A stretch of 34,346 nucleotides of DNA from a virus. Both the position numbers and the translations under genes were made by a program. Under the pieces are notes generated by a model. The model saw nothing but the letters and a program-made list of their open reading frames with translations, was not told the DNA's origin and did not search any database. Positions 5,045 to 23,138 of the stretch are shown here, piece after piece; within the stretch, counting starts at the first letter, position 1; the number at the start of each line of letters is the position of its first letter. Location: IMG/VR virus record IMGVR_UViG_3300030339_000155, positions 1 through 34,346 of that record. One strand, 5' to 3'.

Positions 5045-5824
5045 TTATCCTTTGTTTTTAATCCTAAAGTTATAATTATTTATTTTCGTACAATCCTTGC
5101 ATGTGTTTGACTTTCCCAAATAACTTCTTTTAGAGGCATTAAAATCAGTAGCTAAATTTTTAAGTTCCTTACAACCAGAACAGTACCTTAGTCCAGCCTT
5201 TGCGAGTTCTATTCTGTCCTTAGTTTTACCAAAATTTATTACGCCATCGTGTTTTGATTTGCATTCCTTACACTCATTTCTATATATATCACCTCCATCC
5301 CTAGTGTAGAACTCCGAAATATCTAACTCTCTGATACAGCAGGTGCATATTTTTCTTGATAAAATACCATTTTCATATATGTCTACATGTCTTAATAGCT
5401 CGTCTCGTCTCTTTTTAGCCCGTTCACCTATTCCCCAGTCTTGTTGAGCACCTGTTTCAAAGGATATTTCTCGGCTTCGTGACTTGGTGACTACTATTAT
5501 ATTAGAAAGTCTATTATCTGTTTTTATTTTATTTTTATGACAGTATTCCTCGTTAACAAGTCTTTCCCTTAAAAAAGCCATTCCAACAAGTTCCATTGGT
5601 CTTTTTGTTGCCCTCACCCCATCAACGCTAAATACAACTGTTGGCTCTCCATTAGCACCTACAGTTTGCTTTCTTATGGACTCTTTAATATAGCCACCAT
5701 TAATTCTTTCTCTTCTTTCTGATTTTACTCTTCCTAAATTAGAAACAGAATATATACCGTCATATTCTAAACAGTCCTTCCAAATCTCACCCTCTAAATT
5801 TTGTAAATTTAATGAATAATCCAT
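5045..5824 (-). CDS. NUMOD4/HNH-type homing endonuclease with two C-terminal zinc-knuckle repeats
   Basis: Probable free-standing homing endonuclease. Residues 13-45 (GEIWKDCLEYDGIYSVSNLGRVKS) are a clear NUMOD4 DNA-binding motif. Residues 94-112 (YCHKNKIKTDNRLSNIIVVT) match the second half of an HNH domain, but the usual VDHINGD is replaced by EYCHKNK, so the active site is divergent. The C-terminal half has two CxxC...CxxC units, C160/C163 with C185/C188 and C215/C218 with C242/C245. These resemble the CxxC...EFY...CKEC zinc modules often attached to phage HNH proteins. It lies 13 bases downstream of a second HNH gene on the same strand, and both run against the structural operon. Cleavage activity is uncertain because of the altered HNH core. 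Confidence 0.8.
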   Translation of the reverse strand: MDYSLNLQNLEGEIWKDCLEYDGIYSVSNLGRVKSERRERINGGYIKESIRKQTVGANGEPTVVFSVDGVRATKRPMELVGMAFLRERLVNEEYCHKNKIKTDNRLSNIIVVTKSRSREISFETGAQQDWGIGERAKKRRDELLRHVDIYENGILSRKICTCCIRELDISEFYTRDGGDIYRNECKECKSKHDGVINFGKTKDRIELAKAGLRYCSGCKELKNLATDFNASKRSYLGKSNTCKDCTKINNYNFRIKNKG

Positions 5825-5837
5825 CTTATTTTTAATT

Positions 5838-6371
5838 TTAATTTATCAATTTTAGTTCATTTTGATATGCATTCGAGGCATCTATTTCAGAATCAAAATA
5901 TCCAATATGCTTACATTTTTTGTTAACAGTAATTGTAGCTGCCCATTTTCTGTTTTCTTTCTTCCAGCAAACTCCAACATATTGACTAGTTAGGCGGCTT
6001 TGGTTCGCCCTAAAGCATGTAGTTGAATTTTCATACGCCGTTACAAGTCTAAGGTTAAATAATCTATTATTACTCTTATCTCCATTTATGTGATCTACCA
6101 CCAATCCATCTAATCCGGGTCTATGCCCTAAAAATGCTATTGCAACCAGTTGATGAACACTCCTGCCTATCGTTATTCCGTCTTTACATAGGACAATCAT
6201 ACTGTATCCACTACGGCTTATTCCAGACTTTAAAATCTTACCGATTCTTTTATAAAAAAATTTTTTGTGCCAAACATCTCTATCGAGAGATTTCGCATTA
6301 CCGAGATTGCTTACCTCGTATTGTCCGGCATACCCATCTACAGATTTCCAAATTTCAATCTTATTTTCCAT
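5838..6371 (-). CDS. NUMOD4-HNH-AP2 homing endonuclease
   Basis: A complete member of the NUMOD4/HNH_3/AP2 family of free-standing phage homing endonucleases, which cut a specific site in related phages and spread by repair. NUMOD4 is at residues 6-30 (EIWKSVDGYAGQYEVSNLGNAKS). The HNH core is at 73-115, with H73, VDHINGD (92-98) and NNRLFNLRLVT (101-111). An AP2 DNA-binding domain is at 128-172 (TSQYVGVCWKKENRKWAATI...ASNAYQ). It is the first gene of a two-gene leftward unit with the HNH gene at 5045-5824. Its upstream leader (6372-6472) holds a potential pseudoknot and a promoter match, so expression may be controlled by leader RNA folding. Confidence 0.9.
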   Translation of the reverse strand: MENKIEIWKSVDGYAGQYEVSNLGNAKSLDRDVWHKKFFYKRIGKILKSGISRSGYSMIVLCKDGITIGRSVHQLVAIAFLGHRPGLDGLVVDHINGDKSNNRLFNLRLVTAYENSTTCFRANQSRLTSQYVGVCWKKENRKWAATITVNKKCKHIGYFDSEIDASNAYQNELKLIN

Positions 6372-6385
6372 TATTAACTAAACGA

Positions 6386-6458
6386 AATCCGCCAAATACA
6401 GAAGTCTCAGTTTCTATAAATGGCGGATTCCTAAAATGTTTTTAGTGGGGCTGAGACT
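6386..6458 (-). promoter_or_regulatory. Possible pseudoknot in the leader of the HNH genes
   Basis: Two inverted repeats interleave. AATCCGCCA (6386-6394) pairs with TGGCGGATT (6421-6429), and AGTCTCAG (6403-6410) pairs with CTGAGACT (6451-6458). The a-b-a'-b' order is that of an H-type pseudoknot. A third hairpin, CTAAAA/TTTTAG (6431-6436 and 6440-6445), sits in the connecting loop. On the minus strand the fold begins about 14 nt after the predicted transcription start and ends 14 nt before the HNH start codon at 6371. The pairings are read directly; folding and function are inferred. Confidence 0.5.
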
Positions 6459-6477
6459 CCCGAATTGCTTATAATTA

Positions 6478-6510
6478 CAAATTTACGGATTTATATGCAT
6501 AGTTGTGTCA
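6478..6510 (-). promoter_or_regulatory. Bacteroidota-type promoter for the HNH unit
   Basis: On the minus strand TAAATTTG (6478-6485) fits the -7 consensus TANNTTTG. TGAC (6507-6510) lies exactly 21 bases upstream. Together with the flanks, the module ACTGACACAA-N6-ATATAAATCCGTAAATTTG is identical, apart from the six spacer bases, to the plus-strand promoter at 33964-33998. Predicted start of transcription is near 6472. Confidence 0.65.
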
Positions 6511-6573
6511 GTCGGTTATCTACAATTAAGAATAATTACGTTAAATAATTAGTTTATTCCATTTATTTTCTTA

Positions 6574-6609
6574 TGACAGCAAATATATGACTTAATTGTA
6601 GTATCTTTA
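6574..6609 (+). promoter_or_regulatory. Possible late promoter upstream of the 6684 gene
   Basis: TATCTTTA (6602-6609) is one base off the TANNTTTG -7 consensus. TGAC (6574-6577) lies 24 bases upstream, slightly longer than the 21 seen at other promoters in the window. The surrounding layout (AATTACGTTAA, TTATTCC, box, GAGCC repeats, hairpin, ATG) is shared with the region at 12918-13062, which supports a related promoter. Confidence 0.45.
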
Positions 6610-6635
6610 CGCCCATAACATAATAGAGCCAATTG

Positions 6636-6663
6636 AGCCGTGTAGAAGAAATTCTATGCGGCT
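6636..6663 (+). promoter_or_regulatory. Terminator-like hairpin in the leader of the 6684 gene
   Basis: AGCCG (6636-6640) pairs with CGGCT (6659-6663), and TAGAA (6643-6647) pairs with TTCTA (6652-6656), forming a two-part stem followed by a T-rich stretch (TTTATTTATTT). A spare GAGCC copy lies upstream at 6626-6630. The hairpin lies about 25 bases past the predicted start and 20 before the start codon, so it could act as an attenuator or a 5' stabiliser. Confidence 0.5.
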
Positions 6664-6683
6664 TTATTTATTTAAACCAAACT

Positions 6684-7154
6684 ATGAAAACAATCAAGCA
6701 AAAGGCAGTAGAAGCCGGACTTTGCAAACCATATGAGTCCGAATGGCAGGATGATAGCAATTTAGTCGAGAGATATGTCAAAGGTATCACGTTTTGCATG
6801 GAGAAAAACTTCATCACATTAGAAGATATGAAACCTTTCAAAAAAGAATTGGAAGAAAATAACGTTTGGTGCGAGCAGAGAGTAGACCATTTATTAACCG
6901 CAGATACATATGTTTATAATGAGTGTTCCGGCAGTCTTGAAATAATTGATTACTGTGTGTCTCGCGCGTATATAGGATTAGGTAGCGTACTGAAAATCAC
7001 TGCTAAAAATAATGCTATTCTCTATATCGATGCCTATCACGACAGCAACATCCAAATTATAGTCGAGGATAATGCAAAAATCAGCGTAAGTCAATACAAT
7101 AATAGCTCTATTCAGATATTAAAAGGAGTTGCCACAATAACAGATAGAAGATGA
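6684..7154 (+). CDS. Small protein of unknown function in the tail operon
   Basis: I do not recognise the family. I chose the ATG at 6684 (MKTIKQKAVEAGLCKPY) over the TTG-initiated frame at 6633, because the extra residues would come from the hairpin leader. The 156-residue product has a helical N-terminal half. Its C-terminal half (about residues 85-150) alternates hydrophobic and polar residues in short units (AILYIDAYHDSNIQIIVEDN and the following AKISVSQYNNSSIQI), resembling a short beta-solenoid. Its stop overlaps the start of the downstream HNH gene as ATGA. Position between the tape measure and the hub protein suggests a role in tail assembly or structure; that is inference only. Confidence 0.75.
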   Translation: MKTIKQKAVEAGLCKPYESEWQDDSNLVERYVKGITFCMEKNFITLEDMKPFKKELEENNVWCEQRVDHLLTADTYVYNECSGSLEIIDYCVSRAYIGLGSVLKITAKNNAILYIDAYHDSNIQIIVEDNAKISVSQYNNSSIQILKGVATITDRR

Positions 7155-22606: not shown

Positions 22607-23138
22607 TATTTAATTCTTTAAGTTTTGTTATATATGCCAATCCAGCGTCTTTCTCTATTTTAAATGAACCCAAATGAATTGACTTTCCGTTTATCTGTAT
22701 TCTACTTCTCCATTTGTTAGTTGATTTATTCCACCCAACGCCAATATATTGGCTTGTATGCGCCTCTATATTTTTTCTAAAGCATGTGGTCGAATTTTCT
22801 CTTGTGGTAACAATCCTAAGATTTTCTACGCTATTGTTTAATATATTTCCATCTATATGATCTACGACTAACTTGTGACCGCATGGTATGTGACCTAGAA
22901 ATGTCATTGTAACTAATTGTGATACATGGTATATTTTTCTCTGTTTATTTTTGCACAGCTTACATCTATAATATCCGAATTTATCTGTTGTAAAGGTCAT
23001 TAAAAATTCTTTTTTAATACAGGTGGCATTATTTTTGCCATTCAATCTAACTCTTGATAGGCTCTTTACTTCCCCAAAATCGCTAGCCTGATAAATTCCT
23101 TCGTACCCCGGTATATCCATCCATATCTCTTTTTTCAT
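22560..23138 (-). CDS. NUMOD4-HNH-AP2 homing endonuclease within the recombination block
   Basis: A 192-residue free-standing homing endonuclease. NUMOD4 is at 3-28 (KEIWMDIPGYEGIYQASDFGEVKS), the HNH core at about 71-112 with VDHIDGN and NNSVENLRIVT, and AP2 at 129-172 (SQYIGVGWNKSTNKWRSRIQI). It starts with an ATGA overlap on the upstream gene. Its last 15 codons overlap the start of the exonuclease gene by 47 bases. It probably inserted between two formerly adjacent genes. Its core is similar to the HNH genes at 5838-6371 and 7151-7879. Confidence 0.9.
   Translation of the reverse strand: MKKEIWMDIPGYEGIYQASDFGEVKSLSRVRLNGKNNATCIKKEFLMTFTTDKFGYYRCKLCKNKQRKIYHVSQLVTMTFLGHIPCGHKLVVDHIDGNILNNSVENLRIVTTRENSTTCFRKNIEAHTSQYIGVGWNKSTNKWRSRIQINGKSIHLGSFKIEKDAGLAYITKLKELNNENLQRHNSIIAGVA

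Follow-up and report, generated by a model that had tools for sequence, protein, structure and literature searches.

In T4-type phages, leader hairpins have been described for the homing-endonuclease genes I-TevI, segB and mobE, and also for seg43 of Aeromonas phage 25 (PMC2988022), the T4 type being a single hairpin which hides the ribosome binding site. The putL and putR RNAs of phage HK022 are about 70 nt long, form two stem-loops downstream of early promoters and need no protein factors (PMC9378689). The int-alpA RNA (RF02996) is a phage RNA located upstream of genes, and its consensus has an outer stem, inner hairpins and a U-run; as read from the alignment, its loop CCUU could pair with a downstream AAGG. 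In addition, a candidate RNA of 109 bp, HMP2_4078, was reported mostly from Bacteroidetes, near phage D5 N-terminal and integrase domains (PMC8040213).

The leader compared with these systems here lies on the minus strand of a 34,346-nt stretch of viral DNA (IMG/VR record IMGVR_UViG_3300030339_000155, the whole of which is called the window), in front of a homing-endonuclease gene (Table 1). Among known RNAs, int-alpA is the nearest to it in layout, but int-alpA has its U-run after the first-closed stem and the two types of leader described below (K and L) have theirs after the last-closed one, and int-alpA had no match in the window at the gathering threshold or at E <= 10. At the gathering threshold, no Rfam family matched the window or the K leaders tested. 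RAGATH-21 (E 0.83) and other sub-threshold Rfam matches, which appeared at the window leader under relaxed thresholds, were taken as chance. HEARO, the omega RNA of IscB, was set aside, there being no Rfam match and only NUMOD4 and HNH_3 in the protein, where RuvC together with HNH would be expected. An HDV-like ribozyme and a reduced group I intron core, both compared by eye, were rejected, with stems and inner hairpins misplaced and no conserved catalytic core visible. HMP2_4078 differs in its published description, which makes it palindromic and without a predicted terminator (PMC8040213), although it may overlap with the present family. No earlier description of the kissing-loop leader was found in the literature covered, many subscription papers lying outside its scope. 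Since no Rfam match was obtained and int-alpA shares position and pseudoknot potential with the leader, the leader is regarded as a new family among structured phage leader RNAs, possibly one already listed in large candidate sets (PMC8040213).

Fold of the window leader

The sequence-only reading had proposed two interleaved stems of 9 and 8 bp, and both were confirmed (stem A/A' and kissing helix B/B'; Table 1), with their strands in the order B-A-B'-A' on the minus strand; no other perfect interleaved stems of at least 8 and at least 8 bp within 110 nt were found on either strand of the whole 34 kb window. The nested fold of 6472-6372 alone reached -31.8 kcal/mol (z = -5.2), and 0 of 200 shuffled sequences folded as well. 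The minimum free energy (MFE) structure contains two elements shared by the family, a short stem round the B strand (P1, only 3 bp in the window) and a 7-bp stem round B' (P3), while the internal loop between A and P3 is UU/UU. Since B' is the loop of P3 and B is the loop of the short hairpin, the natural reading is two hairpins with loop-loop pairing. The interleaving in the pseudoknot claimed earlier is real, but an intramolecular kissing loop is a better name for the topology than a plain H-type pseudoknot.

Table 1. Positions of the features discussed (window coordinates unless a locus is named).
Feature	Position	Strand	Remarks
-7 promoter element (putative)	6478..6485	-	TAAATTTG, matches Bacteroidota TAnnTTTG
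P1 hairpin	6448..6461	-	GGG/CCC stem, 6461-6459 with 6450-6448, round B; MFE
B, 5' strand of kissing helix	6451..6458	-	AGTCTCAG; 8 bp with 6410-6403
A-rich linker	6431..6447	-	contains the third hairpin proposed earlier
A, 5' strand of second, terminator-like hairpin	6421..6430	-	AATCCGCCA (6429-6421); 9 perfect bp with 6394-6386
P3	6397..6418	-	6418-6412 with 6403-6397, shows B' in its loop; MFE
B', 3' strand of kissing helix	6403..6410	-	CTGAGACT; pairing, and covariation in relatives
A', 3' strand of terminator-like hairpin	6386..6394	-	TGGCGGATT; pairing, and covariation in relatives
U-rich tail at foot of stem A	6381..6388	-	ATTTCGTT; interrupted, and less pronounced here than in the majority of relatives
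Client gene, NUMOD4 + HNH_3 homing endonuclease	5838..6371	-	177 aa; Pfam
Second NUMOD4 gene, weak HNH_3 match	5045..5824	-	starts 13 nt past the end of the first
Conserved segment TAATAGTT...GGTAATCTTtAAACC	L566:12740-12778, L567:14213-14251, L570:502-537
Type-Q leaders	L083, L087, L253, L259, L170, L304, L569:1398-1490; P12002S likewise		int-alpA-like layout

A transcription start near 6472, as suggested earlier, agrees with the promoter-like TAAATTTG at 6485-6478, from which a start is predicted; no clear -33 box was found upstream of the leader, and P1 lies about 16 nt past the promoter element, against the usual 3-6. The fold ends, as had been noted, 14 nt before the start of the HNH gene, the ATG lying that far past A'. 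The proposed third hairpin inside the fold (CTAAAA/TTTTAG, 6445-6431) did not hold up, with only -0.7 kcal/mol in the window and any hairpin of -2 kcal/mol or lower at this place in only 4 of 87 relatives. The second NUMOD4 gene is probably on the same transcript as the client gene.

Two other leaders of the window were also noted. The divergent plus-strand gene at 6681-7154, of unknown product, has a leader (6578-6680) which carries TATCTTTA and has a strong hairpin (6635-6664) ahead of TTTATTTATTT, which stands right before the ATG, with a sub-threshold match to the trpB motif (E 0.011). Near 23138 (-), a further NUMOD4-type start (MKKEIWMDIPGYEG...) has TAnnTTTG 84 nt upstream, without a convincing kissing leader.

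Relatives of the leader and covariation of its helices

Upstream regions of related NUMOD4-HNH genes were gathered from viral and genome contigs, and the order B-A-B'-A' was observed between a TAnnTTTG promoter and the ATG in leaders without evident sequence similarity. A scan for perfect-stem pseudoknots over all loci gave many chance matches in GC-rich contigs and was therefore replaced by a shuffle-controlled score. Among 253 NUMOD4-HNH starts, a pseudoknot beating all 40 shuffles was present in 38 of the 63 with TAnnTTTG at -150 to -75 and in 25 of the 190 without it. In an earlier, smaller set with the same kind of score, the figure for other gene starts of these contigs that lack the promoter was 14/388.

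Two gene-blind DNA patterns, derived from leaders of the L and K types, were searched in IMG/VR. The fold was present in 88 of the 91 distinct L matches listed (40 of 910 shuffles) and in 57 of the 59 distinct K matches listed (40 of 590 shuffles), with one or two copies of the RNA per contig. As a control, other TATATTTG sites in the same contigs reached the fold score in 67 of 400 cases, which are either further leader variants or chance.

With a model of the L type (R2), built from 18 other sequences so that the window leader lay outside the training set, the window was matched at 6467-6376 (-) over the full model length, with 45.7 bits and an E-value of 1.4e-7, and the next matches in the window had E-values of 0.06 or worse, all of these E-values being rough. 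The K-type model R1 had no match in the window, and BLASTN of the window unit against annotated phages gave nothing. Under stricter filters and with no positive control, R2 had 0 matches in 247 Flavobacterium-phylum and 249 Clostridium-phylum genomes, which is uninformative on prophages. The window leader is a member of a widespread family of folded RNAs behind promoters of Bacteroidota phage genes.

In the K alignment, 96.5% of the cells were paired and double-change cells numbered 118 against 34 in shuffles; the corresponding figures were 96.7% and 88 against 26 in the L1 alignment, and 98.3% and 39 against 13 in the L2 alignment of 8 sequences. When the partner was slid by 1-3 columns, pairing fell to 32-50%; related rows inflate the double-change counts, but the slid controls keep the relatedness and yet fail. 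Since the L pattern had fixed P1 and part of B, the covariation test was repeated on a protein-found set of 21 model matches, almost wholly HNH loci, with the window row aligned too. In this alignment 96.2% of the cells were paired and double changes numbered 126 against 32.5, occurring in 4/4 pairs of P1, 7/7 of A, 4/4 of P3 and 5/7 of the kissing helix; the fit was to a nested model, which is biased towards P1, A and P3, and the kissing pairs, 90.9-100% paired in relatives, lie outside that model. The covariation shows that the four-helix fold, including the kissing helix, is real, and the compensatory changes which the sequence-only reading had named as its check are strongly present for both stems across the alignments.

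Genes behind the leader and exchange between phages

The 55 distinct L clients among the matches listed included at least 35 homing endonucleases (HNH_3 31, GIY-YIG 4), and others were replication genes (DUF6291, Lin1244, Prim-Pol, helicase), an antirepressor and small unknowns. K clients among the matches listed were mainly replication-initiation and small unknown proteins, with NUMOD4-HNH in 3 of 43. The kissing-loop RNA serves other genes too and is not HNH-specific. Its earlier description as the leader of a homing-endonuclease gene is right for the NUMOD4/HNH_3 client of the window, but the same RNA also precedes unrelated genes.

These clients bear on two other explanations. Homing endonucleases can autoregulate via operators, as in the case of I-TevI (PMC2988022), and the repeats might likewise be binding sites of the endonuclease at the DNA level, or chance inverted repeats, without RNA function; with four helices covarying interleaved in a fixed order, a one-sided position behind the promoter and clients which are not endonucleases, this is highly improbable. 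A trans-acting small RNA or RNA antitoxin would end at the U-tract and bind the downstream protein, the gene being reached by read-through, and the order of promoter, structured RNA, terminator-like end and gene is indeed shared with type III toxin-antitoxin systems and AbiF (PMC12373285). However, unrelated proteins (HNH, GIY-YIG, replication proteins, helicase) stand behind one RNA type, the spacing to the ATG is constrained, and tandem repeats, a type III toxin-antitoxin trait, were absent from window positions 6300-6600, which makes such a role very unlikely.

The RNA was also found in the named phages tooticki6-1, lillamy9-1, phi19:1 and P12002L/S. In tooticki6-1, a Flavobacterium phage, an L-type RNA precedes the NUMOD4 endonuclease gene gp32 (E 2e-17) and a second, divergent RNA precedes gp35-gp37 (primase/helicase), whereas lillamy9-1 has only the RNA before the primase/helicase genes and is without the HNH-gene copy. 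No relative lacking the HNH gene turned up for the window phage, the identical contig being the only match, and this pair was therefore used for the block comparison. Homology between the two phages ends just past gp31 and resumes in the gene of the single-strand-binding protein, indicating that the promoter, the RNA and the HNH gene are parts of a single exchanged block. In addition, Cellulophaga phage phi19:1 has a K-like RNA before gp030, and Polaribacter phage P12002L has an L-type RNA immediately before the replication protein, its HNH genes having leaders of another layout, termed type Q.

Further classes of leader were seen before HNH genes. Type-Q leaders (Table 1) carry GTCGTAGC...GCAAAAGGTT..CCTGCTACGAT, a U-run and a downstream strand pairing with the inner loop, precede HNH genes of Bacteroidota phages, and look like a bridge between the int-alpA and kissing-loop layouts. 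Above the Rfam cut-off, int-alpA itself was found immediately upstream of NUMOD4-HNH genes with a Shine-Dalgarno sequence (L140:1908-1974 and L115:1912-1979), a context not implied by the family name, and the leaders of L141 and L144 resemble these examples but are below the cut-off. In L117 and L130, HNH leaders reaching from about 100 nt to 18 nt ahead of position 2001 have interleaved stems of 14 and 23-24 bp and precede a Shine-Dalgarno sequence, forming another, unrelated-looking class of pseudoknot leader.

The 3' end of the leader and its possible role

At the end of stem A, at least 6 T in 10 nt were present in 56 of 56 K leaders, 70 of 87 L leaders and 21 of 32 leaders found through HNH genes, against a background of 11-14%; a clear U-tract is missing at the predicted point in about one fifth of the L and about one third of the HNH-found leaders. 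Stem A mostly has a G+C-rich foot; an A-rich stretch precedes the stem and the U-tract comes after it, and in the window the sequence there, ATTTCGTTTAG, is U-rich and interrupted. In this composition, the 3' end of the leader resembles an intrinsic terminator. The median distance from stem A to the ATG is 11 nt (L) and 23 nt (K), and the quartiles of the promoter-to-ATG distance are 98-103 nt (L) and 120-124 nt (K), a spacing as tight as expected of a cis leader and fitting one.

As read by eye, the internal loop that separates A from P3 is often UGA(U)/UGAU or UGAA/GGAU, with possible tandem G.A pairs, or AGUA/GAA, a possible bulged-G motif. Ahead of the replication gene in Flavobacterium and Cellulophaga phages, a conserved segment was noted which lies past the terminator-like hairpin and before the ATG (Table 1).

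The comparison with T4 made in the sequence-only reading is not borne out. Like the seg43 hairpin of phage 25, the window fold leaves the ribosome binding site uncovered (PMC2988022), and unlike the T4 type the leader is tied to a promoter, contains a kissing helix and stands before many other genes. Since there is no Shine-Dalgarno sequence to hide, the start codon is outside the fold and the 3' end is terminator-like, control is more readily seen as transcriptional than as translational.

From this anatomy, the leader is predicted, with about an even chance, to be a cis-acting 5' leader RNA with a built-in attenuator or antiterminator. Transcription would begin a few nt before P1, as the promoter element suggests; in the fold which covariation shows, loop B of P1 kisses loop B' of the second hairpin, and this hairpin closes as stem A, running into the U-tract. 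The terminator-like end, about 8-25 nt ahead of the start codon, would set read-through into the gene, and the kissing fold would modulate it, either by itself or together with a factor of phage or host. Against an attenuator counts that the kissing helix and the terminator hairpin are compatible, with no competing antiterminator pairing evident, and so do the interruption of the U-tract in the window and the share of L and HNH-found leaders in which a clear U-tract is missing.

Alternatively, the leader might act after transcription, protecting the 5' end of the mRNA or aiding the start of ribosomes on messages which lack a Shine-Dalgarno sequence, since only a few nt separate the presumed 5' end from the start of the structure, and the ATG comes after it at a fixed spacing. 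This would leave unexplained why the last hairpin ends in a U-tract in all K and most L leaders, and is considered unlikely. The folded 5' end might also bind the elongating RNA polymerase and resist pausing and termination, as HK022 put does by contacting the zinc-binding domain of the polymerase beta' subunit. With put the leader shares a place behind a phage promoter in early transcription units, a similar length, two hairpins (PMC9378689), one or two copies per contig and replication genes among its clients. However, the described put RNA is without a kissing loop and without an overlapping terminator-like end of its own, and many clients are single homing genes, which need no processive antitermination; such a role is thought rather unlikely.

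More broadly, though with somewhat less than even confidence, the leader is proposed to represent a regulatory RNA of a new class in phages, a kissing-loop module close to the promoter which would control the terminator that it overlaps, or else act on RNA polymerase directly, serving Bacteroidota phages both as a general switch of replication genes and as part of the mobile cassette of homing endonucleases. Phages would use the leader for their replication genes, and homing genes would carry their own copy in a unit of promoter, leader and gene.

Little is known of gene control in Bacteroidota phages, whose hosts have a promoter of another kind and seldom rely on Shine-Dalgarno sequences. The present family provides a defined RNA of about 90 nt, the kissing helix of which is backed by covariation; as it occurs in cultured Flavobacterium, Cellulophaga and Polaribacter phages, its function is directly testable. 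As the block exchange in one phage pair indicates, homing genes move with their own promoter and leader.
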